A stretch of 34,384 nt of DNA, from positions 1 to 34,384 of IMG/VR virus record IMGVR_UViG_3300020129_000245, one strand, 5' to 3'. Both the position numbers and the translations under genes were made by a program. Positions 1,393 to 32,131 of the stretch are shown here, in pieces. The first letter of the stretch is position 1. Each line of letters begins with the position of its first letter. A model generated the notes under the pieces. That model saw only the letters and a list, made by a program, of their open reading frames with translations, was not told the origin of the DNA and ran no database searches. This DNA is from a virus.

Positions 1393-2159
1393 TTCCCGGC
1401 TCCGTTGCGCATCTGGCGCGCCTCGGCGGCCAGCGCATCCGGCGCGCGGCAGCCGGCTTCGCTCGGCGGCGGTCCCCAAAAGCTGCTCCAGAATCCGCGC
1501 TCGACCCAGGCCCGACATCGCTGCTCCCAGGGTGGCTCGGGCAGGGCGTCGCCGTCGCTCCGCTTCCGTTTCGAAACGCGTTTCACAAAAAGCCCCCCCA
1601 CGGGGGGTTTGGGGGGTATATCTTCTGTCTCGTAGCGTCTCGTATCGTCCCTTACGCGTTCAGAAACGGTTTCGAAACGCGTTTCATACTGCGTTTCGTA
1701 CGGCGTTTCATCGCCACCTATGCTATTGTTTTCATTAGGACACGCATCTTTTCTACCGCGCCATTTTGCTAAGCGTGCGCGGTCTGCGTCGCGACGCTCT
1801 TCATAATTTTGCCTCATTTTTTTTGCTCGAAGAACCTCGACGCAGAGGAACCGATGATACAGCCGACCATCGGAACAGAGTTCAAAACCATGTAAGGCAA
1901 CCTGACGTACTTTTGCCCATCGCCGGCCGGTGCCGGAGAAGGACGCCAGCACTTTGTCGTCGTTCGGGAGCGAACCCGCTGGAACCTGCTTCCAGGCGCG
2001 GCACCAGAGCATCAGCGCGGCCCAGCATTCCTCTGGCGAGCCCGTCGCCACTAGTTCACTCGCGAGCAGATGCTCGACGTTCAGCATAAAGCCGGCGAGG
2101 TTGCTGACATCGGTATCGGCCGGGACGAAAGGATCGGGCTGCATGGGCACCGCCTTCAT
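1389..2159 (-). CDS. DUF1376-like replication-region protein
   Basis: This 256-residue protein resembles the DUF1376 (YdaU-like) family. The N-terminal domain, about residues 20-125, contains L-N-V-E-H-L-L-A-S-E, E-E-C-W-A-A-L-M-L-W-C-R-A-W and L-P-N-D-D blocks, followed by a basic RLAKWRGRK stretch. The start is the ATG overlapping the DnaA-like gene stop (ATGA). The C-terminal half is low-complexity and includes a four-residue repeat ([YF]-E-T-x, four times) encoded by 12-bp DNA repeats, and a P-P-K-P-P-V-G-G segment encoded by G/C runs. DUF1376 genes often sit among phage replication genes. The embedded repeats resemble origins that lie inside initiator genes such as lambda O. Direct function is unproven. 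Confidence 0.75.
   Translation of the reverse strand: MKAVPMQPDPFVPADTDVSNLAGFMLNVEHLLASELVATGSPEECWAALMLWCRAWKQVPAGSLPNDDKVLASFSGTGRRWAKVRQVALHGFELCSDGRLYHRFLCVEVLRAKKMRQNYEERRDADRARLAKWRGRKDACPNENNSIGGDETPYETQYETRFETVSERVRDDTRRYETEDIPPKPPVGGLFVKRVSKRKRSDGDALPEPPWEQRCRAWVERGFWSSFWGPPPSEAGCRAPDALAAEARQMRNGAGK
1568..1709. repeat. 12-bp iterons and 18-bp repeats; candidate origin
   Basis: Inside the DUF1376 gene, GTTTC begins four consecutive 12-bp units at 1669, 1681, 1693 and 1705 (consensus near GTTTCRTACNGC). The 18-bp sequence GTTTCGAAACGCGTTTCA occurs exactly at 1568-1585 and again at 1669-1686, and contains nested palindromes. Between the two clusters lies a run of seven or more C followed by six G. 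Iterons within the gene next to an initiator are typical of phage origins, and the adjacent gene encodes a DnaA domain IV protein. Origin function is inference. Confidence 0.5.
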
Positions 2160-2479
2160 GGCTGGTTCAACGGCAGCGTTGTCTGGCCTGGGTTGCTGAG
2201 ACGGCCGCGCAGCTCGGCGACGACCTCGGCGAGGTCGTGGTCCCTCTCGATCAGCGCGGCGATCGTCTTGCAGGCGTGGATCACGGTCGCGTGATCGCGC
2301 CGGCCGAACAATTCGCCGATCATCGTTGTCGAGGCCGGCGTCAATTCGCGCGCCAGGAACATGGCGATCTGCCGCGGCCGCGCGACGGCACGCGCATTGC
2401 GGTGCGACAGCATGTCGATGCGGGAGAGCCCGAAGCGCTCGCAGACGGCGGCCTGGATGTCGGCGACGTGCGGCGTCAT
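2156..2479 (-). CDS. DnaA domain IV (DNA-binding) only protein
   Basis: This 107-residue protein consists of little more than the C-terminal DNA-binding domain of the bacterial initiator DnaA. Residues 5-30 match the first helices (V-C-E-R-F-G-L-S). RDHATVIHA at 61-69 matches the DnaA signature that contacts the DnaA box, preceded by the helix [10 protein letters not shown]. The AAA+ ATPase domain III and the DnaB-loading domain I are absent. It is sandwiched by four-base overlaps with bet upstream and DUF1376 downstream. A plausible role is binding the iterons in the next gene to recruit or block host replication proteins. Domain identity is strong; role is inference. Confidence 0.9.
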
Positions 2480-3405
2480 TTGTCGGCCTCCTGCAATGGC
2501 GGCAGGCCGAAAGGGTTGTCTGCGGTCTTGGCGGTGTGCTGGAACACCTTGAGATGCGGGCGGATACTGTTGCGCTCGGGCTGTGACAGGCCGAGCCAGA
2601 AATCGCGAAACGCTTCGGTGCCGCGCAGTGACGCGGAGCGTGCTTCATCGAGGATGTCGCGCTCCGGCGGCGGCTCGGTTGCACTGAACATGTCACCGAC
2701 GATTTCACCCGTTTCTGCATCAACTGTTTCGCTGGTGACAGAAGCGGTGACAGAAGCGAATTTATCGAGTTCTGGCAAGGTGTTGGATGGCGTCGGCCCC
2801 GCATCGCGCGGATTATCGGCTTGTGCCATTTCGTCGTTGGTATAGAGGCCGCCCAGCTCCTGCGGAAAGGCTTTGCGGAGCGCCAACGCCTCGGCGCACT
2901 TGGCGATCATTACATCCGGCATGGTTGCCCACATGCGGACGAGAGTGCCATCTTTGCGGCGTTGCGCGTAACTGTCGAACCGCGCCACTGCCCAGCACGG
3001 CTCGGTGAAGTTCTGTCGGATCACGGCGACTTTGGCCGCTTTTGGCGGCTCCTTGGCGAGCCATACGTCATGCCAGGCGCCATCCTCGGCGCACCACATC
3101 GGGCCGAGCTGCCCGGTATATTTCCCGGTGCGCTCGGCGATCAGGCGCAGTCCGTCGATCGAAGTTTGTATCGCCATGACCTCGCGTCCTTGGCCGGCGT
3201 CATAGCGTTTTATGGCGTGGATCTGCCGCGAGAACGGATCGAGCCCGGTGCGTCGGCATTGCTGCAGGAAGAGCTGCAGCTCGTCATGGGTTGCGCCCTT
3301 GCAGATTGTCCGCTTTATCAGTTCAACTTGATCCTGGGTGAACTGCGTCGTGTGTTGGATTGCCGGGGAATTGTGCGGCAGTGTCACCACTTCATTCTGT
3401 GGCAT
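2476..3405 (-). CDS. bet: Bet/RecT-family single-strand annealing protein
   Basis: This 309-residue protein matches phage Bet recombinases over about residues 20-205. Key blocks are [22 protein letters not shown] near 41-61, [15 protein letters not shown] near 80-94, and [16 protein letters not shown] near 165-180. Bet coats and anneals complementary single strands made by a partner exonuclease. That partner is the next gene upstream, whose 3' end overlaps this gene by 14 bases. The C-terminal 100 residues are acidic and variable, as is usual for the family. Confidence 0.93.
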
Positions 3406-4312
3406 AGTCGTTCTCCTCGGTGACAGATTTCACGCGCAGCACGCGGATGGTCGCGGCGGGGATGACGGTTTCGCGCCGCTGCCACGAGCGAAACGAGATG
3501 TTCCAGCCGGGGAGCCAGCCGGTCATAGCGCGGCCCATGCGGTTTTTGATCTGGTAGTCGATCTCTTTAAGCCGCTTATCGGCGGCGCTGGTCGTGGCCT
3601 TCAAGCTGGCGCGCTCGGTGAGAATGGCCGGCAGCTCGTTGTCGCCGCTAAGGTCTTTGTGGCTGCCGTCGTCGAGGTCGGCGACGAGTTCGGCGCTCGG
3701 GGCGGCCTGGGGTATTTGGGCGCCGCTGTCCCATGCCGCCCACCACTCGGCGACGGCGGCCAATATGCGGCCCTCCGCGGCCGCGTGGCGCGGCACATCG
3801 AAGTAGTGCACCGGATAGGAGGGATTGCAGACCATCACCGCCAGGACGCCCCAGGCGCGCCCGGTGACAATGATTTCGGTCAACGTCTGGAGCACATAGG
3901 CGAGCGGCGCCCGGCCGTGCCAGCTATCCCATTGCTGCGGCGAGCAGGTTTTGACCTGGATCAGCCCGTCGTCATTGGCCCAATAATCGGGCGTGCAGCC
4001 GAGGCGGTGCTCTGGAAGCCGGTGATAGGTCGTCGCCTTGATCAGCAGCCATTCCGGGCGCTCTTCGCTGATCGCAGCGGCAACCGCCGGCTCCAGGATG
4101 CGGCCGCGGCGCATGGCGGGGCTATCTGGTGGGATGTATCCGGCGCCGCCGCCGCCTTCACCATGCATGATGCGCGCGAGGTCGTCGCGCGTCAGGTACG
4201 GATGCAGATCAAAGAGCGCGGCGATGCGGCTGGCGGTAATGTCCTTCTCGCGCCAGGTGAGCCAGTCGCCGAGCGATGTTATTTCGCGGACTTCGCGCGC
4301 CGGCTCGGTCAT
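3392..4312 (-). CDS. YqaJ/lambda-exonuclease-type recombination nuclease
   Basis: This 306-residue protein has the PD-(D/E)xK fold of YqaJ-type viral recombinases: R-R-G-R-I-L-E74-P early, then G-C-T-P-D109-Y, then L-I-Q119-V-K121, and a Q142-containing helix (A-Y-V-L-Q-T-L) like the QxxxY motif. Family members chew one strand of linear double-stranded DNA so that the annealase can load, and the bet gene follows immediately. The usual acid two residues before the lysine is Gln here. The start ATG overlaps the upstream gene by four bases. The C-terminal third resembles a helical extension ending in a basic S-W-Q-R-R-E-T stretch. Confidence 0.85.
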
Positions 4313-4683
4313 GGCGCCGGCCTCCGCGGATCATTGTGAGTCCAAAAACCGCGTTGGACGCATACGGCCCAGATTTCGCGGTAGCACTTAGGGCCGAAAT
4401 TCGGTAGCCGGTGCAGTTCGGCTCGCGTTAGTGCAGCAACCTCTGAGAGCATGGTCGGAGGTTTCGAGTCTTTGGGCCAATTCCACACTCCGAAACAATT
4501 ACGGATGCGAACCGCGAGATGGCTGTGTTTGAACGCCTCATAAAGTTCGACGTCGTTTGGCTCGTGCCTCGGTTCTATTATCTGCCGTAGCCGTTTAAGC
4601 CCATCGCAACTATGCTCCATCTCCGCGATTAGCTTGTCCAGCATCGGGATCGCCGTGTCCATCTCGCGGACGGGCTCAGTCAT
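4309..4683 (-). CDS. RNA polymerase alpha-CTD-like helix-hairpin-helix protein
   Basis: This 124-residue protein is the first gene of the leftward early operon. Residues 79-105 (L-S-E-V-A-A-L-T-R-A-E-L-H-R-L-P-N-F-G-P-K-C-Y-R-E-I) closely resemble the C-terminal domain of bacterial RNA polymerase alpha subunit, which binds UP-element DNA and activators. The rest (1-78) shows a helical region with charged residues and no known domain. It starts MTEPVRE, nearly the same as the next protein ([10 protein letters not shown]). A regulator that competes with or mimics alpha-CTD at promoters is possible; so is a plain DNA-binding HhH protein. Confidence 0.75.
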   Translation of the reverse strand: MTEPVREMDTAIPMLDKLIAEMEHSCDGLKRLRQIIEPRHEPNDVELYEAFKHSHLAVRIRNCFGVWNWPKDSKPPTMLSEVAALTRAELHRLPNFGPKCYREIWAVCVQRGFWTHNDPRRPAP

Positions 4684-4746
4684 GGCGCGGCCCGCTTTTC
4701 AGCGACATTTTTGTAAGGGCCGTCTCTGTGCCATTTTATTTTTTCC

Positions 4747-4815
4747 GATACGGGATTGACGACTAATGGATACGGGGAGTAGCCTTTTATATACGGGGTT
4801 GGTACACCCCGTATC
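4747..4815. promoter_or_regulatory. Repeated TACGGGG operator sites between divergent units
   Basis: Four copies of a 9-bp motif lie in the 146-bp gap between the leftward early operon and the plus-strand cassette. GATACGGGA is at 4747, GATACGGGG at 4769, TATACGGGG at 4790, and an inverted copy CCCCGTATC at 4807-4815. Spacings of 22 and 21 bp place the first three on one face of the helix. The last two form TATACGGGG-N8-CCCCGTATC. On the minus strand the motif overlaps an AT-rich TATATAAAAGG that could be a -10 region. Binding protein unknown. Confidence 0.6.
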
Positions 4816-4829
4816 CAACGGAGGAAATA

Positions 4830-5990
4830 ATGTCTTATCCTGCTATACGTTCTAGCCAAGAAGACGGTTTGGAATGCTATCTGCTCTCGCTGCGCCCTTC
4901 GACATTGTTCGCTTTCCTGCGCCACGATCCGCGTTCGGCGCACTGGAAATCGCTCACGCCATGGTTGCGTGGCATTTACGAAACCAAACAGCGGGAAACC
5001 AAGACCGCCCGTATCACCGCCCTTGAGGACTACATTCTCAATCGCGTGATGGACCCTGGGAAGATTGGCGCTTTGCCCCCGATCTCGGTCTTCCAGTTCC
5101 AGCCGTTCGACGCCTCCTGTCTGACGTGCGTTAGTGGCGTCAGGTACGAGATCGAGGACAGCGATGCCGAGGTCGAGCGCGTGCTGATTGACGGGCTGGC
5201 TCGCGTCACGGCTGCTCAGGCTGTGCGCGAGCGATTGCAGGTCGAGAACCCGCAGGCGTTCGACCATTTCAACAACACGTTCCGCTTTACCGTGGCGTTG
5301 TATGTGCCCACAACTGGCCGGCTGTCCCCGGATATTGCGGGGCAGTTGTTCGCCGACTTTAACAGTTATGCGTGGCCGGTCCCGGCCGCGACGACCGTGG
5401 CGAACGACATCTACAACCCCTATCGCGCGATTGCACGGAAGGTCGCTGAGTCCGATATTCTGCGACGCTACGGAGGGTTGAAGATCGGTAAGGCGAAGCT
5501 CGGGCGGAAGGATGTTAATTTCACGACCGAGGTCACGATGGCGCAATTCTGCAAGATCGTGATTGAGGGCGGGGCAGGGTACGGCAGCCTCAATAAGCCG
5601 GTGCCCAACGCCAAGGTTTCCGGTGTCGATCAGGATGCCGTCGCCGCCAAGATTGTAAGCTTCATTAGCGGTCTTGAAGCGGCCATGGGTGCCGACAAGT
5701 TCGCCGATACCGGCGCACTGTTTCGCACCGCCCACGGCTTCTATGCGCTGGCGATTCTCTTGCATGACATCGGCGAGGGATTGACGACCCAGGTGCAAGC
5801 CGTGCCCGCGCTTGCCGCCATTGATTGGACTTGGAACAACCCGGAGTTTCAGTCCAACATTGGCAGGAATGTTGGGGGCACTGGATGGCGCATGAATACC
5901 GGCTCGGCGACGATGTGGTGGCTGGTTCAGTATTGCCGGGCAAAGAGTGGGGTCGCGCTGCCGAACGCTACGGTTGTTCGCGCCGCATAG
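4830..5990 (+). CDS. DndB/DGQHR-like protein
   Basis: This 386-residue protein starts at an ATG six bases after a strong GGAGG. Two blocks resemble the DndB/DGQHR family: V-L-I-D-G-L-A-R-V-T-A-A at 118-129, where family members have DGQHR or DGQQR, and Q-L-F-A-D-F-N-S-Y-A-W-P-V at 172-184, matching the family pattern of a short acidic-Phe/Asn helix. DndB proteins are linked to phosphorothioate DNA modification, mainly as regulators. No dndACDE genes are present here. It is followed by an adenine methyltransferase on the same strand, suggesting a DNA-modification or anti-restriction cassette. The match is by motif only, and the DGLAR variant lacks the usual QH. Confidence 0.55.
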   Translation: MSYPAIRSSQEDGLECYLLSLRPSTLFAFLRHDPRSAHWKSLTPWLRGIYETKQRETKTARITALEDYILNRVMDPGKIGALPPISVFQFQPFDASCLTCVSGVRYEIEDSDAEVERVLIDGLARVTAAQAVRERLQVENPQAFDHFNNTFRFTVALYVPTTGRLSPDIAGQLFADFNSYAWPVPAATTVANDIYNPYRAIARKVAESDILRRYGGLKIGKAKLGRKDVNFTTEVTMAQFCKIVIEGGAGYGSLNKPVPNAKVSGVDQDAVAAKIVSFISGLEAAMGADKFADTGALFRTAHGFYALAILLHDIGEGLTTQVQAVPALAAIDWTWNNPEFQSNIGRNVGGTGWRMNTGSATMWWLVQYCRAKSGVALPNATVVRAA

Positions 5991-6007
5991 CAGCACTACC
6001 TTTGCGG

Positions 6008-6053
6008 AGAGAAAGCGGCCGCTAATTCGACCGGAAACGCGGCCGCTTTCTCT
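6008..6053 (+). terminator. Strong hairpin between DndB-like gene and methyltransferase
   Basis: A perfect 15-bp stem (6008-6022 paired with 6039-6053) encloses a 16-base loop. Each arm contains the 8-bp palindrome GCGGCCGC. It lies just after the DndB-like stop codon and is followed by TTACCTTT rather than a clean T-tract. It may be a partial terminator or an RNA stabiliser that sets the ratio of the two cassette genes. Confidence 0.55.
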
Positions 6054-6080
6054 TACCTTTAATAGAGGAACACGGACGGT

Positions 6081-6731
6081 ATGCACTGTATAAGTTGTGG
6101 GGCGGCTCTGCCGCCCTCTATCACTAAGCCGCGCAAGTTTTGTGATAACGCCTGCCGAAAGACACACAATCGGAAGAACATTCGGGAAGAAGGCAGGAAT
6201 GAATGGTATAGCCCGCAGAACGTAGTGGATGCCGCTCGGCGGGTTATGGGCGGTATCGATCTCGACCCAGCGAGTTGCTATCACGCTAACGAGGAGATCG
6301 TCCGCGCTAGGGGCTACTACACGCGAGCCGACGACGGACTGACGCTGCCATGGCGCGGCCGGGTGTGGCTCAATCCGCCTTACGACACCTTCGCTCCAAA
6401 ATTCTTTGTTAAATTCTGCGAGGAATACGAAGCCCGCCGCACTCCAATGGGATGCCTCCTCCTTGGCGTGCATCACTTGACGACAAAGTGGTTTCAGCGC
6501 GTCGAACAATTTGCCGCGATCTTGTGCTTGCCCGCCGGTCGGCTGAAATTCACCGGACGCCTCGCGCATGGGAATCCACCCATGCACGGCAGCGCGATAC
6601 TCGGGGTTGGGGTTAACCCGGATCTTTTCCGAAGCGAGTTCGGGGAGATCGGAATCATATTGGAGTTGCAGGCGAGGGAAGCCGCTGCAATAGCGCCTAC
6701 CCCGCTCGTGCTTGTATCCAATCATCGCTAA
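6081..6731 (+). CDS. dam: Phage-type DNA N-6-adenine methyltransferase with zinc-finger head
   Basis: This 216-residue protein has the Dam-family layout found in phages. NPPY at 98-101 is the catalytic motif that holds the adenine amino group, and I-D-L-D-P-A-S at 59-65 is the block typical of this family. An N-terminal C3-x-x-C6...C21-x-x-x-C25 cluster resembles a zinc finger (C-D-N-A-C-R), which not all members have. An AGAGGA ribosome site lies 12 bases upstream. It probably methylates phage DNA to block host restriction or to alter gene control. It shares a plus-strand cassette with the DndB-like gene and runs against the flanking early genes. Confidence 0.9.
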   Translation: MHCISCGAALPPSITKPRKFCDNACRKTHNRKNIREEGRNEWYSPQNVVDAARRVMGGIDLDPASCYHANEEIVRARGYYTRADDGLTLPWRGRVWLNPPYDTFAPKFFVKFCEEYEARRTPMGCLLLGVHHLTTKWFQRVEQFAAILCLPAGRLKFTGRLAHGNPPMHGSAILGVGVNPDLFRSEFGEIGIILELQAREAAAIAPTPLVLVSNHR

Positions 6732-6766
6732 TCGCGCCCGTATCACCGTCCCTCTCTACAAAACTC

Positions 6767-6786
6767 GGTGCCGTGCGCCGGGCACC
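6767..6786. terminator. Weak hairpin between convergent genes
   Basis: GGTGCC-N8-GGCACC lies in the 72-bp gap where the methyltransferase gene and the RuvC-like gene end facing each other. ATTT follows the stem on the plus strand. Its position suits a terminator, but the stem is short. Confidence 0.3.
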
Positions 6787-6803
6787 ATTTCGGGCCGCAC
6801 AAC

Positions 6804-7331
6804 TCACGCCGCCTCCCCCTTCGCGACACCTCCCAGCGCCCTTATCCCGTACAGCCCGATCAGCGCCGCCTCTGCGCGGCCGATCGCGGCGGCGCGGGTG
6901 CAATAGCCGCGGCGCACCGTCCACAGCCCCACGTCGTCCGGCATGAGCCGCCCGGCGCAGTCGAGCGCCAATGCCTTGTCGGCGCGGATTCCGAAATGGC
7001 CTTTCCATCGCACCGGCGCGACGATCTCGTAGGGCCAGCCGTGGCAGGCGGCGATGGCTTTGATGGCCATGTAGCGCTGGCCCATATTGAAGGCGCTGGC
7101 GGTGCCCATGCGGCGCGCCCTGTCGCTGCCGGCGTAAGCCGCCTGGCGCTCGATCCAGATGTGGCCGAGCCGCCGGCCGTCGAGCGCGCCGAGGAGATCG
7201 ACCGCCAGCTCGCGCACGCGCAGCTCGGCACCGCTCATCGGCATGTCGACGATCGCGAGCACGCGGCACGTCTCGGCGTCGAGCAGCGCCACCGCGCCGT
7301 CCGCGCCGGGGTCTGCGCCGGCGACGATCAC
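6804..7331 (-). CDS. RuvC-like Holliday junction resolvase
   Basis: This 175-residue protein shows the RNase H-fold resolvase blocks: A-G-A-D7-P-G-A-D-G-A, I-W-I-E61-R-Q, K-A-L-A-L-D near 119-124 and G-R-A-E154-A-A-L-I-G. Phage members cut four-way junctions to resolve recombination and packaging intermediates. I choose the GTG start at 7331 because it overlaps the upstream stop as GTGA; a TTG at 7346 would add five residues. The Asp that often precedes G-R-A-E-A is Ile here, which may reduce activity or reflect a shifted site. The gene lies downstream of the Cro-like gene in a leftward two-gene unit. Confidence 0.8.
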   Translation of the reverse strand: MIVAGADPGADGAVALLDAETCRVLAIVDMPMSGAELRVRELAVDLLGALDGRRLGHIWIERQAAYAGSDRARRMGTASAFNMGQRYMAIKAIAACHGWPYEIVAPVRWKGHFGIRADKALALDCAGRLMPDDVGLWTVRRGYCTRAAAIGRAEAALIGLYGIRALGGVAKGEAA

Positions 7332-7609
7332 CGCGGCTCTCCGCAAACCTCCAGCGGCTGCGCGCGACGGCGCCGCCGCTCAGCGAGGCCGGGCTGGATG
7401 TCAATGGGCCACGGCGCGTTCTCGGGCCACGTCGCGCGGAAATATGTCTCAGCCCGCGCCAAGGTGCGGATATTGGCGCCGCCGCCCTCTGCAAGCCTGA
7501 CAAAAATGCGGTTGTTGCCGCACGCTCGTCTGCCTAGGGTTGAGAGCGAGACGCCAGTCGCAGTCGCGTAGAGCTGCGCCAGTCTCAAGAGGTCGGCGGG
7601 GCTTAGCAT
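7328..7609 (-). CDS. Cro-like helix-turn-helix protein
   Basis: This 93-residue protein is divergently placed opposite the repressor-like gene, the position of Cro. Residues 8-35 (L-R-L-A-Q-L-Y-A-T-A-T-G-V-S-L-S-T-L-G) can form a helix-turn-helix. A G-G-G-A-N-I-R-T-L-A-R-A-E block at about 42-54 resembles the matching N-L-I-L-N-L-A-R-A block of the repressor at 7772-8185, suggesting related folds. The C-terminus is basic (E-R-R-R-R-R). It probably represses lysogenic transcription to start the lytic programme. Identity rests on context plus weak motif similarity. Confidence 0.65.
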   Translation of the reverse strand: MLSPADLLRLAQLYATATGVSLSTLGRRACGNNRIFVRLAEGGGANIRTLARAETYFRATWPENAPWPIDIQPGLAERRRRRAQPLEVCGEPR

Positions 7610-22051: not shown

Positions 22052-22525
22052 TCAGATTTCCTCAAGCGCCAGGGTCCACGACACCGCCTGCTCCCATTCC
22101 TCGCGGTCGATGTTGTACTCGACAACCATCATCTGGAACGACGGGCGGTAATAGGTGAAATCGCCCTCGGTGCGCACGCTGCCGCTAACCGGCGTGCGCG
22201 AGGTGATGCCCGTGGCGGTGAGCACCGCCATCTCGACGTGCGAATTTACGTTGACGATCATGCCGACCCAGAGGCCATCCAGCGCGGGCGGCGCGTAGTC
22301 GTTGCCGGCGACACTGAGCCGATATTTCCGCATCTGCGGCGCCGAGATGTCGATGAGGCCGCCGTTGACGGTGCGCGCGAGCTTGTCGATCCCTTGCGCC
22401 GCATCGATCGGGCTCAGCGTGCCGCGCAGCCCGCGCGCCGAATAGGGATTGACGCCGGGGGCGACCGCCGCCGAAATATCGAAGGTGATACTAAGATCGG
22501 TCGGCGTCGCGGCAGTGATCGCCAT
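22052..22525 (-). CDS. Distal tail-like protein
   Basis: This 157-residue protein lies between the tape measure region and the large tail tip. It has an early G-L-R-G-T-L-S-P-I-D block, then M-R-K-Y-R-L-S-V-A-G-N-D-Y and a closing V-V-E-Y-N-I-D-R-E-E-W-E-Q. A beta-rich protein here usually caps the tail tube and joins the hub. The family call is by position and general character. Confidence 0.55.
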   Translation of the reverse strand: MAITAATPTDLSITFDISAAVAPGVNPYSARGLRGTLSPIDAAQGIDKLARTVNGGLIDISAPQMRKYRLSVAGNDYAPPALDGLWVGMIVNVNSHVEMAVLTATGITSRTPVSGSVRTEGDFTYYRPSFQMMVVEYNIDREEWEQAVSWTLALEEI

Positions 22526-22528
22526 TGT

Positions 22529-22687
22529 TCACCGCAAGCCCGGCACGAACAGGAAGACTCCCAACAACAGGACGGCGATAAATCCCAGCCAGGAACTCGC
22601 CCAGCCGAATTGCGCCGTCCCCGGCATCGGCAGGCACGTCAGGAACCACAGGAACATGCAGACGACGAACAGAATCTCGACGATCAT
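22529..22687 (-). CDS. Small two-span membrane protein (52 aa)
   Basis: The ATG follows GGGAGGGCGCG, a strong ribosome site, and gives a 52-residue protein (MIVEILFVV...). An upstream start would add 15 basic residues inside the end of the tape measure gene. It has two hydrophobic segments, about 2-19 and 28-50, split by P-M-P-G-T-A-Q-F-G. It lies between tape measure and distal tail genes. Size and topology suit a small holin, but no lysis partner is beside it; a tail-linked membrane role is also possible. Confidence 0.65.
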   Translation of the reverse strand: MIVEILFVVCMFLWFLTCLPMPGTAQFGWASSWLGFIAVLLLGVFLFVPGLR

Positions 22688-22701
22688 CGCGCCCTCCCTT
22701 T

Positions 22702-24318
22702 TCAGCGCCCGCTCGGCCGGCCCGCGAACCAACTCGGCTTGACGCCGGCGCTGCGCGTCTGCTGCCAGTGCGCCTCGCTCACGAGCGCATCGACGACGCC
22801 CGCCGAACCCGACAAGGCAAAGCTTTGCGAGCCGAGATGCAAATGCACGGCACGGCCACTGCTGGCCGAGGCCAGCCCGCCTGCGGCAAAGCGAATCGGC
22901 GGCGCGCCGACCAGCCCGCCCGCGGCAAAGTTGTTCAGCCCTTGGAGGAAATCGACACCAAGGCGGCGCACGCTGCCGGCGTTGAGCACAAATTCGCCAT
23001 TGCTGAGCCGCGCCAAGATGCTGTCGCTGGTGCCGCTGCCGGGGCCGCGGATGTATCCGCCAGCAGCATTTGTCGGCATCGCCGGTATGCTGGGATCGCC
23101 GAATTGCGGCAAAGCCGATGAACTCGCGCCGGGCGTAAAAGTTTTGGCAATAACGGCGTCAACGCTCTTGCCAATGTCGATGAACTTTTGAACCCATCCG
23201 ATGAGCGTTTTAACCTGCTGTATCGAATCCGAGATCCCCTTTGTTAGATCATTGAAAAACCTCGTCAGTTCTGGGCCGGCGAGCACAACGATCTGCTTCA
23301 CTAGGCCGTTGAATGCGTTGCTTAATTTGTTCAGCGCATCCGTATATTCGCGAGCACGCTGCTTGTCTTCCTCGCTGACCAGTTGCCCGGAACGTATCAG
23401 CTCCTGGCGCAGCGCTTCGCGGTCCCTGATGAATAATTCCAGGCTCGGGCCAATCACCCGAAGCGACGCTCCAAGTGCGTCGATGCTGAGCTTATCCGCC
23501 CTGTCTATTTGCCCCGCATTCTTCAAAGCCAGCACGCGCCGCATGACGGTTTGCGTATAGTCGAGAAACCCTGCTTCAGTCGGCGGGAACTTCCTGATGT
23601 CGATTTGCAGTTCCTTCAGCGACTTGGAAAAATCGACAATCGCCTTTTGTCCACCCCTCAAGACCTGTACGGCGGAATTACCAATGTTCGTAACGTCGCT
23701 GAACTGGTCCCTGGTGCCGCCGCGTGCGACTTGAACCGGGCCGAGCAGTTCGCCGGCTTCGAGCGCCTGCTGACGGGATCGGTCAAACAGCTCCCGCGAT
23801 TTAGCAAAAATTTTATTAGCGTCATCGGCCTGGCCGCCGGTCTTCTCTACAGCAAGACCTAACTCTTGAATGGCGGCAGTCGCCGCTCCGGTTTCCTTGC
23901 CGGCTCTGACCAGAGCCGTAATTTTATCGACCGCCGCTGTAATGCCGCGGATGACTTGGACCGCGCCAAAGGCGATGAGCCCCAGGCGCAAACTCCGCAG
24001 ACCCTCAATAGGCAGGCCGACAGCGTGCCCAAATTCGCCAACCTGTTTGGCAAGTTCACTAAAACTACGAGACACGACGACATTGGCCGCAACGGTGCTG
24101 CGCGCCGCTGTCCGATAAGATTGCATCTGCCGTTCGACGGCCAGAAGCTCGCCGCTTTTTGCCGTCATCGCCGGTGTGACGCCGGCCCCCTTCTGCACGT
24201 CGTCGGCTAATCCTTTTAGCTCCTTGCGCAACTCGCGGGCTTTTCTGCCCAGCAACTCAAAATCTGCGCGCGCTTTCGCAGAGTCGGCGCTGATCGATAT
24301 GCTCAGATTATCGGGCAT
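22702..24318 (-). CDS. Tape measure protein
   Basis: This 538-residue protein sets tail length and passes through the membrane during infection. The N-terminal 100 residues are coiled-coil-like (A-R-E-L-R-K-E-L-K-G-L). A hydrophobic part lies near 105-130. The C-terminal G-S-G-T-S-D-S-I-L-A-R-L-S-N-G-E-F-V-L-N motif at about 430-450 is a hallmark of many tape measure proteins. At about 1.5 angstroms per residue it predicts a tail near 80 nm, short for siphophages. Its ATG follows the GT frame stop with no gap. Confidence 0.88.
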   Translation of the reverse strand: MPDNLSISISADSAKARADFELLGRKARELRKELKGLADDVQKGAGVTPAMTAKSGELLAVERQMQSYRTAARSTVAANVVVSRSFSELAKQVGEFGHAVGLPIEGLRSLRLGLIAFGAVQVIRGITAAVDKITALVRAGKETGAATAAIQELGLAVEKTGGQADDANKIFAKSRELFDRSRQQALEAGELLGPVQVARGGTRDQFSDVTNIGNSAVQVLRGGQKAIVDFSKSLKELQIDIRKFPPTEAGFLDYTQTVMRRVLALKNAGQIDRADKLSIDALGASLRVIGPSLELFIRDREALRQELIRSGQLVSEEDKQRAREYTDALNKLSNAFNGLVKQIVVLAGPELTRFFNDLTKGISDSIQQVKTLIGWVQKFIDIGKSVDAVIAKTFTPGASSSALPQFGDPSIPAMPTNAAGGYIRGPGSGTSDSILARLSNGEFVLNAGSVRRLGVDFLQGLNNFAAGGLVGAPPIRFAAGGLASASSGRAVHLHLGSQSFALSGSAGVVDALVSEAHWQQTRSAGVKPSWFAGRPSGR

Positions 24319-30217: not shown

Positions 30218-32131
30218 TTATGGCCCCCAATTAACGCCGGTGCTGATGAACTGAACCATGCCCGTGCGCCGCATCGCCCAGGAGATGTTCGCGATCATCC
30301 GAATTGCAATCTGACCCGTCTGGAACATCGATTGCGTCGGTGTTGCGAGAACGCCGCTCCCCTGCGCGCCGGTTGCGATGTTCAGCGGTGTCGTGTCCTC
30401 CATGTGGAGCGTCGCGACTTCGCTGACCTCGAATTCTGGTGCGCCGGATACCGAGACAAAGTCCACCGCGTCGATCATGTAGACGGAGCCGGCCGCGATG
30501 GTCGTGCTGGCAATGACGGTGAACATATCGGTGAACTGCGTCGACCAGCCGAACGGCGCGCCGGCTGGACCCGGTGCGTAGATCAACTGCTGCCGCTGTT
30601 GCGGGTTCGTCAGCATTACTAGCTTGCGGCCGGCGTTCACCGCGTAAAACGGTGCGGTTAATTTGTTGAGGTCGCCTAGGAACGCCGCATAACCGCCGCC
30701 CGCCGTCGCGGTGAGCGTCGAGACGCCGTTGGTCAACCCGGCAGGCCTCGTTGTCGATACCGCCGCGTTATCGAGCAGCACGCCGTCGACGTTGATGCTC
30801 GTATCGTTCACGATGCTGTCGCGGATCAGGCTCTCGATAGCCGGGTTCGAATATGCCGCAATCTCCCGGCTGTAGACTGAGATCGCACCGACCTTGTGCG
30901 GATAGAGCGTGATCGAGGTCGTCCCCAATCGGCGCACGGGAATGGGTGCCGATTCGGCGACGAACGACCCGCCGATGCTTGGCGTCGTTTGCCGCGACGG
31001 GATTTTTATCGCGCCGGCATTCGGCCCGAAGTTGAGCGCGGTCCCCATTGCCGACAGCTTAGGAAACACGGCGTTCGGGTAGAGCAGGTTCACGAACTCG
31101 CCCTGCGCGAGCTGGATAAGTTCAGCCGCCCAGTTCGTCGTCGTCGTCGTGGCGCCGGCTACTGCGGCACGGGTGATTGCGCCAGTGACGGCCGCGGTCG
31201 CCTCGTCTTCCGGATAATGTTCGCGGAGCACTTGATCGACCGGCTTGCGGCTTTCGCAGGCCCGCAAAAGAACCCCCAACGCGCGGAAGTAAAGCTCTCC
31301 CGGTTTCACCTCCTTCGTCGGCAATCCAAACGGCCGGCGGCTGATTGCCGGCGCGGCGGGCGGCAGAACTTCCTGCGTCTTGATCGCCAGCCGGCGCTCG
31401 GTTTCCTTGAACGACACAAGCCGCCGCTCATGCTCATCGATCTCGCCATTGAGCATGTCGGCCGTCTCGATGTCGTAATCCGGCTCTCGGGTGTGTTCCA
31501 ATAACTGGTCGCGAGCCGCGTTCAGCTTCGCTTGTACGTCCTCAATCTGTTTGCTGATGTTCATCGGAGTCGCCCTTGAAAGGCGTTTCGCCACGGCTTG
31601 CCCGCCGGTTGTCGCCACGTCCCGTCGCCCCATTACGGCTTGCCCGCCGAAGGCGAGAGACATGGTGTCGTCTGAAATGTTCAAGGATTTCGCGATCGCC
31701 AATGCCGCCGGGTTCGCCGGCACGCTGACGATCGATGTCTCCAGCAATTCCTGCTCGGTGTAGCGCGTGCCGCGCATCGGGTGCTTCGCATCGATCGGCT
31801 CCTGCGCAATCGCCCGGAACCCGACGCTTGTGGCCCGCAAAATGTCCTGTTCGATCAGGCTCAGGATCTCGTCAACCCGCTGCGAGGTGCCGCGCTCGGC
31901 CGGCACCAAATCCGCCACCAGTCGCTCGTCATCAACCCGGATGTTGCGCCACGTCCCGATCGGCGCGTTGGCGTTGTGGTTGAACAGAGCAATCGGGTTC
32001 TGGCGGAACCAATCGAGCCGCCAGCCTTGCGGGTCGATCGTGTCGCCATATCGATCAACCGTCGCGTCGCTCAAGACATAACTGAGCGACCCCGGCCGCT
32101 TTCCCGCCGCGGTTTTTCGAACGATGGACAT
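30218..32131 (-). CDS. Fused HK97 prohead protease and major capsid protein
   Basis: This 637-residue frame joins two head proteins. Residues 1-150 are the prohead protease: L-F-N-H52-N-A-N-A-P-I-G-T-W and L-E-T-S133-I-V-S-V-P-A-N give the His and Ser of the family. Residues 190-275 are a charged coiled-coil delta domain. From about 280 the major capsid fold follows, with G-E-L-Y-F-R-A-L, I-K-I-P-S-R-Q-T-T-P, F-V-A-E-S-A-P-I-P and I-S-V-Y-S-R-E-I-A. An internal ATG (31564, MNISKQIED) with AAGGG upstream could also start the capsid alone. The protease should cut the delta domain during maturation. Confidence 0.92.
   Translation of the reverse strand: MSIVRKTAAGKRPGSLSYVLSDATVDRYGDTIDPQGWRLDWFRQNPIALFNHNANAPIGTWRNIRVDDERLVADLVPAERGTSQRVDEILSLIEQDILRATSVGFRAIAQEPIDAKHPMRGTRYTEQELLETSIVSVPANPAALAIAKSLNISDDTMSLAFGGQAVMGRRDVATTGGQAVAKRLSRATPMNISKQIEDVQAKLNAARDQLLEHTREPDYDIETADMLNGEIDEHERRLVSFKETERRLAIKTQEVLPPAAPAISRRPFGLPTKEVKPGELYFRALGVLLRACESRKPVDQVLREHYPEDEATAAVTGAITRAAVAGATTTTTNWAAELIQLAQGEFVNLLYPNAVFPKLSAMGTALNFGPNAGAIKIPSRQTTPSIGGSFVAESAPIPVRRLGTTSITLYPHKVGAISVYSREIAAYSNPAIESLIRDSIVNDTSINVDGVLLDNAAVSTTRPAGLTNGVSTLTATAGGGYAAFLGDLNKLTAPFYAVNAGRKLVMLTNPQQRQQLIYAPGPAGAPFGWSTQFTDMFTVIASTTIAAGSVYMIDAVDFVSVSGAPEFEVSEVATLHMEDTTPLNIATGAQGSGVLATPTQSMFQTGQIAIRMIANISWAMRRTGMVQFISTGVNWGP

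Follow-up and report, generated by a model that had tools for sequence, protein, structure and literature searches.

We describe a two-gene, moron-type phage cassette in which a nucleotide-binding autorepressor of the DndB type probably sets the dose of a co-transcribed, exchangeable methyltransferase, a reading that we draw from sequence comparison. The cassette lies in the window, by which we mean the whole stretch of DNA analysed, a 34,384-base IMG/VR virus record (IMGVR_UViG_3300020129_000245, positions 1 to 34,384). An initial annotation had proposed that the two genes are a phage epigenetic or anti-defence unit; on the comparative data, the first reading is a methyltransferase cassette under its own control, whose methylation might counter restriction or serve some other purpose. 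The sequences show four properties: membership of the first protein in the DndB family and, conserved among the loci, its pairing with exchangeable methyltransferases, a putative operator array restricted to the first gene itself, and a hairpin between the two genes. The features of the region are the following.

4733..4762, minus strand: possible promoter for leftward transcription of the HhH-exonuclease-RecT genes; overlaps box 1 (weak; one found against 1.3 expected)
4749..4755, plus strand: putative operator box 1, TACGGGA (box search)
4756..4761, plus strand: candidate -35 element TTGACG, abutting box 1 (read from the sequence)
4771..4777, plus strand: putative operator box 2, TACGGGG, 22 bp past box 1 (box search)
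4792..4798, plus strand: putative operator box 3, TACGGGG, 21 bp past box 2 (box search)
4807..4813, minus strand: putative operator box 4, inverted, forming with box 3 the sequence TACGGGG-N8-CCCCGTA (box search)
4830..5990, plus strand: DndB-family protein of the DGLAR subclade, 386 aa (profile match, tree, AF2 model and fold matches)
6008..6053, plus strand: intergenic hairpin with perfect 15-bp arms (15/15 complementary; z=-4.6)
6081..6731, plus strand: Dam-type DNA adenine methyltransferase, 216 aa, with an N-terminal CxxC...CxxxC treble clef and an NPPY motif (profile and motifs)
6766..6787, minus strand: candidate leftward terminator directly after the resolvase gene (such sites occur in the region at near the chance number)
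6804-7346, minus strand: Holliday-junction resolvase (phrog_1770)
7328-7609, minus strand: small protein with only a function-less profile match (phrog_7669)

Profile scans of the window proteins revealed genes for an integrase, an HTH protein, recombination, head, portal, terminase and tail functions, and the record is that of a temperate phage. The ORFs 4830-5990(+) and 6081-6731(+) were both recovered, and they sit, as had been claimed, against a leftward operon: the two rightward genes are enclosed by the leftward resolvase gene (6804-7346) and by the leftward HhH-exonuclease-RecT genes (2476-4683), which encode a RecT protein, a YqaJ/RecE exonuclease and a small HhH protein. The names given earlier to these flanking genes held for the HhH protein and the exonuclease, while the gene called Bet fits RecT better and the one called RuvC matches the Holliday-junction resolvase family phrog_1770; the Cro-like label for 7328-7609(-) had to be dropped, its sole match being to phrog_7669, a family of unknown function. 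The candidate leftward promoter over box 1 was rejected as no better than the chance level. Among the window proteins scanned, which covered recombination, lysogeny and structural genes, there were no dndC, dndD, dndE or dpd genes, in agreement with the earlier statement that dnd genes are absent, and because these partner genes are absent from the scanned proteins we rejected the cassette as part of a Dpd or Dnd module.

In a related phage, L112, whose exonuclease is 66% identical to that of the window, the resolvase, HhH, exonuclease and RecT genes are co-directional and cassette-free, an arrangement that is consistent with insertion of the cassette in the window phage. The L112 resolvase, as read from its translation, is RusA-like and thus of another type than the window's, and for this reason L112 is not a clean empty site. 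In keeping with a moron, the cassette has a putative control region of its own, is opposed in orientation to its surroundings, and is absent between the resolvase and HhH genes of L112. Elsewhere in L112 (1940-4491), a helicase-like gene and another methyltransferase-like gene, also read from translation, are co-directional with the recombination operon.

A profile search with the 4830-5990(+) product gave the Pfam DndB family PF14072 and not an unrelated family, with a match that spans almost the entire protein (E=7.5e-7). The score of 29.0 bits is 0.1 bit short of the cut-off of 29.1, and we counted the window protein as passing via its clade, whose members L014 (37.3 bits), L025 (30.8), L005 (84.2), L006 (82.2), L007 (79.3), L011 (71.6) and L009 (53.3) are above the cut-off. 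The family assignment made earlier was thereby upheld; its more specific part, that the protein is of the DGQHR type, was not, since the canonical motif is absent, DGLAR stands in its place, and the match to the NCBIfam DGQHR family is below threshold (E=1.6e-4). The form DGL[A/G]R was found in 12/12 clade members and DGQHR in the 19 other DndB-family proteins that we inspected, four of which are high-scoring canonical ones. The 12 DndB-like proteins form one clade (SH-aLRT 100), apart from canonical DndB and from other DGQHR proteins, and by these criteria we place the window protein in a sister clade inside the DndB family, not with canonical DndB.

An AF2 model of the protein was of middling confidence (pTM 0.56), and its fold matches in BFVD included ParB-like and 'DNA-sulfur modification-associated' proteins at E about 0.007 to 0.01; in the PDB we found neither a sequence match nor a fold match. 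DndB has been assigned to the ParB superfamily (PMC10853773), a DndB-like protein has been reported to bind ATP and GTP, and in ParB-fold proteins that were tested, replacement of the conserved Box II arginine abolished nucleotide binding (PMC12704722). The DGL[A/G]R motif retains its arginine, which by analogy only may correspond to the Box II residue, and has lost the Q and H of DGQHR. Because of this loss, nucleotide use may differ from that of DndB, and binding without normal hydrolysis is plausible.

In four phage lineages, whose copies occupy different genomic sites, and at one bacterial locus, a methyltransferase gene comes after the DndB-like gene on the same strand. Three of these lineages, the window together with L014 and L025, carry the same pair, which the initial annotation had suggested should be sought in other phages: L014 has it at 46% and 47% identity, antisense between portal and terminase genes, and L025 at 51-52% and 47-48% identity, flanked by an integrase region and by leftward genes. 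The window phage has near-copies in L002 and L003. In the fourth lineage, L005, a more distant DndB-like gene precedes an N6/N4 methyltransferase gene, again antisense between portal and terminase genes, and in a bacterial MAG (L006) the adjoining gene is for a C5 cytosine methyltransferase. Seven bacterial loci of the clade were found. An HTH gene adjoins the DndB-like gene in L007, five chromosomal homologues (L008-L012) stand alone, and in L004, a Euhalothece plasmid, the DndB-like gene comes after a P63C gene. Since 7 of the 12 homologues, all of them chromosomal or plasmid-borne, are without an adjacent methyltransferase, the link of the DndB-like protein to such an enzyme is not obligate, and control of a methyltransferase cannot be the only role of the subfamily, five chromosomal members being solitary and two having an HTH or a P63C gene as neighbour. 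At least two changes on the tree are needed to account for the link to a methyltransferase, of which the starred branches by themselves force just one.

The clade is rare in bacterial genomes: we found it in 1 of 398 genomes in the order of G006 and in 1 of 392 in the family of G005, each match being the centre genome itself. A tblastn search of INPHARED with three clade members as queries gave zero matches, there is no PHROG for the DndB-like family, and the single find in a plasmid search was Euhalothece pEu4. That plasmid has, besides its intact P63C and DndB-like pair, another DndB-like copy that has decayed and contains internal stops (22,090-23,285). In four of the seven bacterial copies (L006, L008, L010 and L011), uvrA or polA, named from their translations, is directly or nearly directly upstream of the DndB-like gene.

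The separate control region and hairpin attributed to the cassette were borne out. The window control region has four TRCGGG boxes against 0.37 expected in shuffles (p=0.003), and 2-4 such boxes are present upstream of the gene or its operon in 12/12 clade members, where dinucleotide shuffles lead one to expect 0.08-0.41 (p <=0.023 in each of the 12; in L004, boxes were counted upstream of the P63C gene). Only one of 15 control promoters, from DGQHR-type DndB-family genes, had two or more boxes. The typical distance between opposed boxes is 15 bp (7-mer, N8, 7-mer), and between direct ones 21-22 bp, two helical turns. Nearly all boxes of the Dam-linked clade have an A (TACGGGG), and those at other loci are mostly TGCGGGG. 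A candidate -35 element was also read from the sequence of L025 (TACGGGGATTGACT).

Three of the four box pairs at these spacings in the whole 34 kb window fall within 4749-4813. In five records, four bacterial genomes among them, an N8 or N9 inverted array is in the clade member's own promoter; further array hits were at the level of reversed-pattern controls, and hits at other spacings were near the control level. Since the pattern-search hits elsewhere were at control level, we rejected the boxes as marks of a genome-wide regulon. DndB of S. enterica binds TACG-N10-CGTA sites and represses its own operon through them (PMC4507180). The window likewise has inverted TACG half-sites in the gene's own promoter, as TACG-N14-CGTA at 4792-4813, together with direct boxes; the half-site is common to both systems and the spacing differs. 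We regard this comparative evidence as strong, though not a demonstration, that the DndB-like gene is autoregulated. Downstream of the box array and ahead of the start codon, a GC-rich leader hairpin (z -0.6 to -4.4) was seen in L005 and in the chromosomal members L006, L008, L011 and L012, and not in the Dam-linked ones.

The second gene, 6081-6731(+), matches Dam (PF05869) at E=2.3e-11, with 44.1 bits against a cut-off of 28.1, and its NPPY and DLDPAS motifs are conserved in the DndB-linked Dams, as expected from its earlier designation as a Dam partner. The three DndB-linked Dams form a clade of their own (support 100/100), and all three have the N-terminal zinc finger (treble clef), which was present in 0/49 others. 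No DndB-like gene was near any of the 76 other viral Dam loci fetched, in stretches that reached 3.5 kb at most and were shorter at contig ends. Hairpins are frequently found downstream of genes; a strong one lies between the genes at 5/5 pair loci, in unrelated sequences (z -4.1 to -6.4). Among the phage pairs, a partial T run follows only the hairpin of the window, and because the others are without one it is doubtful that the 6008-6053 hairpin is a plain intrinsic terminator. Possibly, it stabilises the upstream message and lowers methyltransferase output.

We infer a scheme that involves DNA binding, nucleotide dependence, repression, methylation and a benefit of the cassette, as follows. 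A moron-type cassette with its own promoter would have entered a temperate phage, in opposite orientation to the recombination operon there. Its DndB-family protein, presumably of the ParB/Srx superfamily, most likely binds nucleotide as well as the four TRCGGG boxes that lie over the promoter of its own gene; by occupying the boxes it would repress its own transcription. The second gene, co-transcribed and set apart by the RNA hairpin, would supply a Dam-type methyltransferase for marking the DNA of prophage, phage and host. In the lysogen the autorepressor would hold this enzyme at a low, steady dose, which would rise upon a change in repressor or nucleotide state, for example at entry or induction. 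The likeliest benefit of methylation to the phage would be escape from host restriction.

It might be argued that the two genes are independent accessory genes, adjacent by chance and each of small benefit; Dam-like genes are frequent among phages, with 404 matching INPHARED records, and accessory genes in phage genomes gather at hot spots. We attach very little probability to such an accident. It is already made unlikely by four phage lineages, at different sites, and a bacterial locus that all keep the gene order and orientation; moreover, the zinc-finger Dam clade is confined to DndB-linked loci. A minimal restriction-modification or addiction unit, with the DndB-like protein as effector (a ParB/Srx-type nuclease or an NTP-degrading enzyme) and the methyltransferase protecting the carrier DNA, would accommodate the exchange of methyltransferase types (Dam, N6/N4, C5) next to a single conserved partner, a pattern reminiscent of restriction-modification systems, as well as weak fold matches of the DndB-like protein to GmrSD N-terminal-like proteins; nuclease or NTPase activity is possible in ParB/Srx proteins (discussed in PMC10853773). 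Yet no nuclease domain was detected in the DndB-like protein by Pfam or PADLOC, DGQHR is degenerate, and the solitary homologues, like those of L007 and L004 with only an HTH or P63C neighbour, would have no local methyltransferase shield. We consider such a unit unlikely.

We also regard as improbable that the DndB-like protein works together with the methyltransferase in the way that DpdB does with DpdA, and governs access or specificity in a nucleotide-dependent manner instead of transcription. Tight pairing and co-evolving clades speak for such a partnership, and in base insertion DpdB acts as an ATPase partner (discussed in PMC12839542); yet the methyltransferases come from three unrelated families, so that a specific protein interface is unlikely, and the operator array is present even at loci without a methyltransferase.

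The self-regulated cassette that we favour resembles several known systems in part. With DndB of dndBCDE operons it shares the PF14072 family, inverted TACG half-sites at the promoter with autoregulatory logic, and a position as first gene of an operon whose product modifies DNA, and we liken its dosage control to DndB's control of phosphorothioation. It differs in having DGL[A/G]R and not DGQHR, no dndC, dndD or dndE nearby, a base methyltransferase as partner, a phage location, and an operator with different spacing and an added direct-repeat array. Phage Dam-type methyltransferases (PF05869, phrog_111) have the same core domain with DLDPAS and NPPY; the treble clef and the DndB-like neighbour are found only in the cassette clade. 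In DpdA/DpdB deazaguanine modification a ParB-like ATPase is likewise beside a DNA-modifying enzyme, whereas here a methyltransferase takes the place of that enzyme and no transglycosylase (DpdA) or DpdC was seen. Type II restriction-modification systems also have a methyltransferase of interchangeable type with a conserved neighbour, but the cassette has no recognisable endonuclease, and several homologues of its neighbour are solitary. We found no description of the DndB-like gene and methyltransferase pair in phages in the open-licence literature searched. The nearest published report is of ParB-fold/methyltransferase fusions in prophages (PMC12704722), which also join a ParB-type nucleotide-binding module to DNA methyltransferases; those are domain fusions of the PF02195 type, whereas the cassette consists of two genes, is of the DndB type and has an operator array. 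New here are the DGL[A/G]R clade, the TRCGGG array at fixed spacings and essentially confined to its own promoter, the hairpins of the pairs, and the DndB-linked Dam clade.

DndB has so far been studied as the servant of phosphorothioation. The present clade keeps the operator logic and couples to three unrelated methyltransferase types, with no Dnd genes seen, which suggests that the core function of DndB is dosage control of DNA modification in general. Because the gene arrangement turns up again in unrelated phages, with methyltransferases of different kinds, the cassette looks like a mobile, self-controlled DNA-marking unit. More tentatively, and in our view less likely than not, the DndB-type nucleotide-switch repressor could have become a general control module for interchangeable methyltransferases on temperate phages, on which nucleotide state and possibly methylation of the boxes feed back; if so, it would form a self-limiting epigenetic circuit governing the strength of DNA marking by the carrier. 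The predicted operator is defined precisely enough for a single gel-shift to test it.

Two other window genes were of note. Directly after RecT, 2156-2479(-) encodes a DnaA C-terminal DNA-binding domain alone (PF08299, E=8e-27), without the ATPase part. The product of 30218-32131(-) matches the profiles of a head maturation protease and of a major head protein (phrog_80 and phrog_617) and is likely to be a fused protease-capsid protein.
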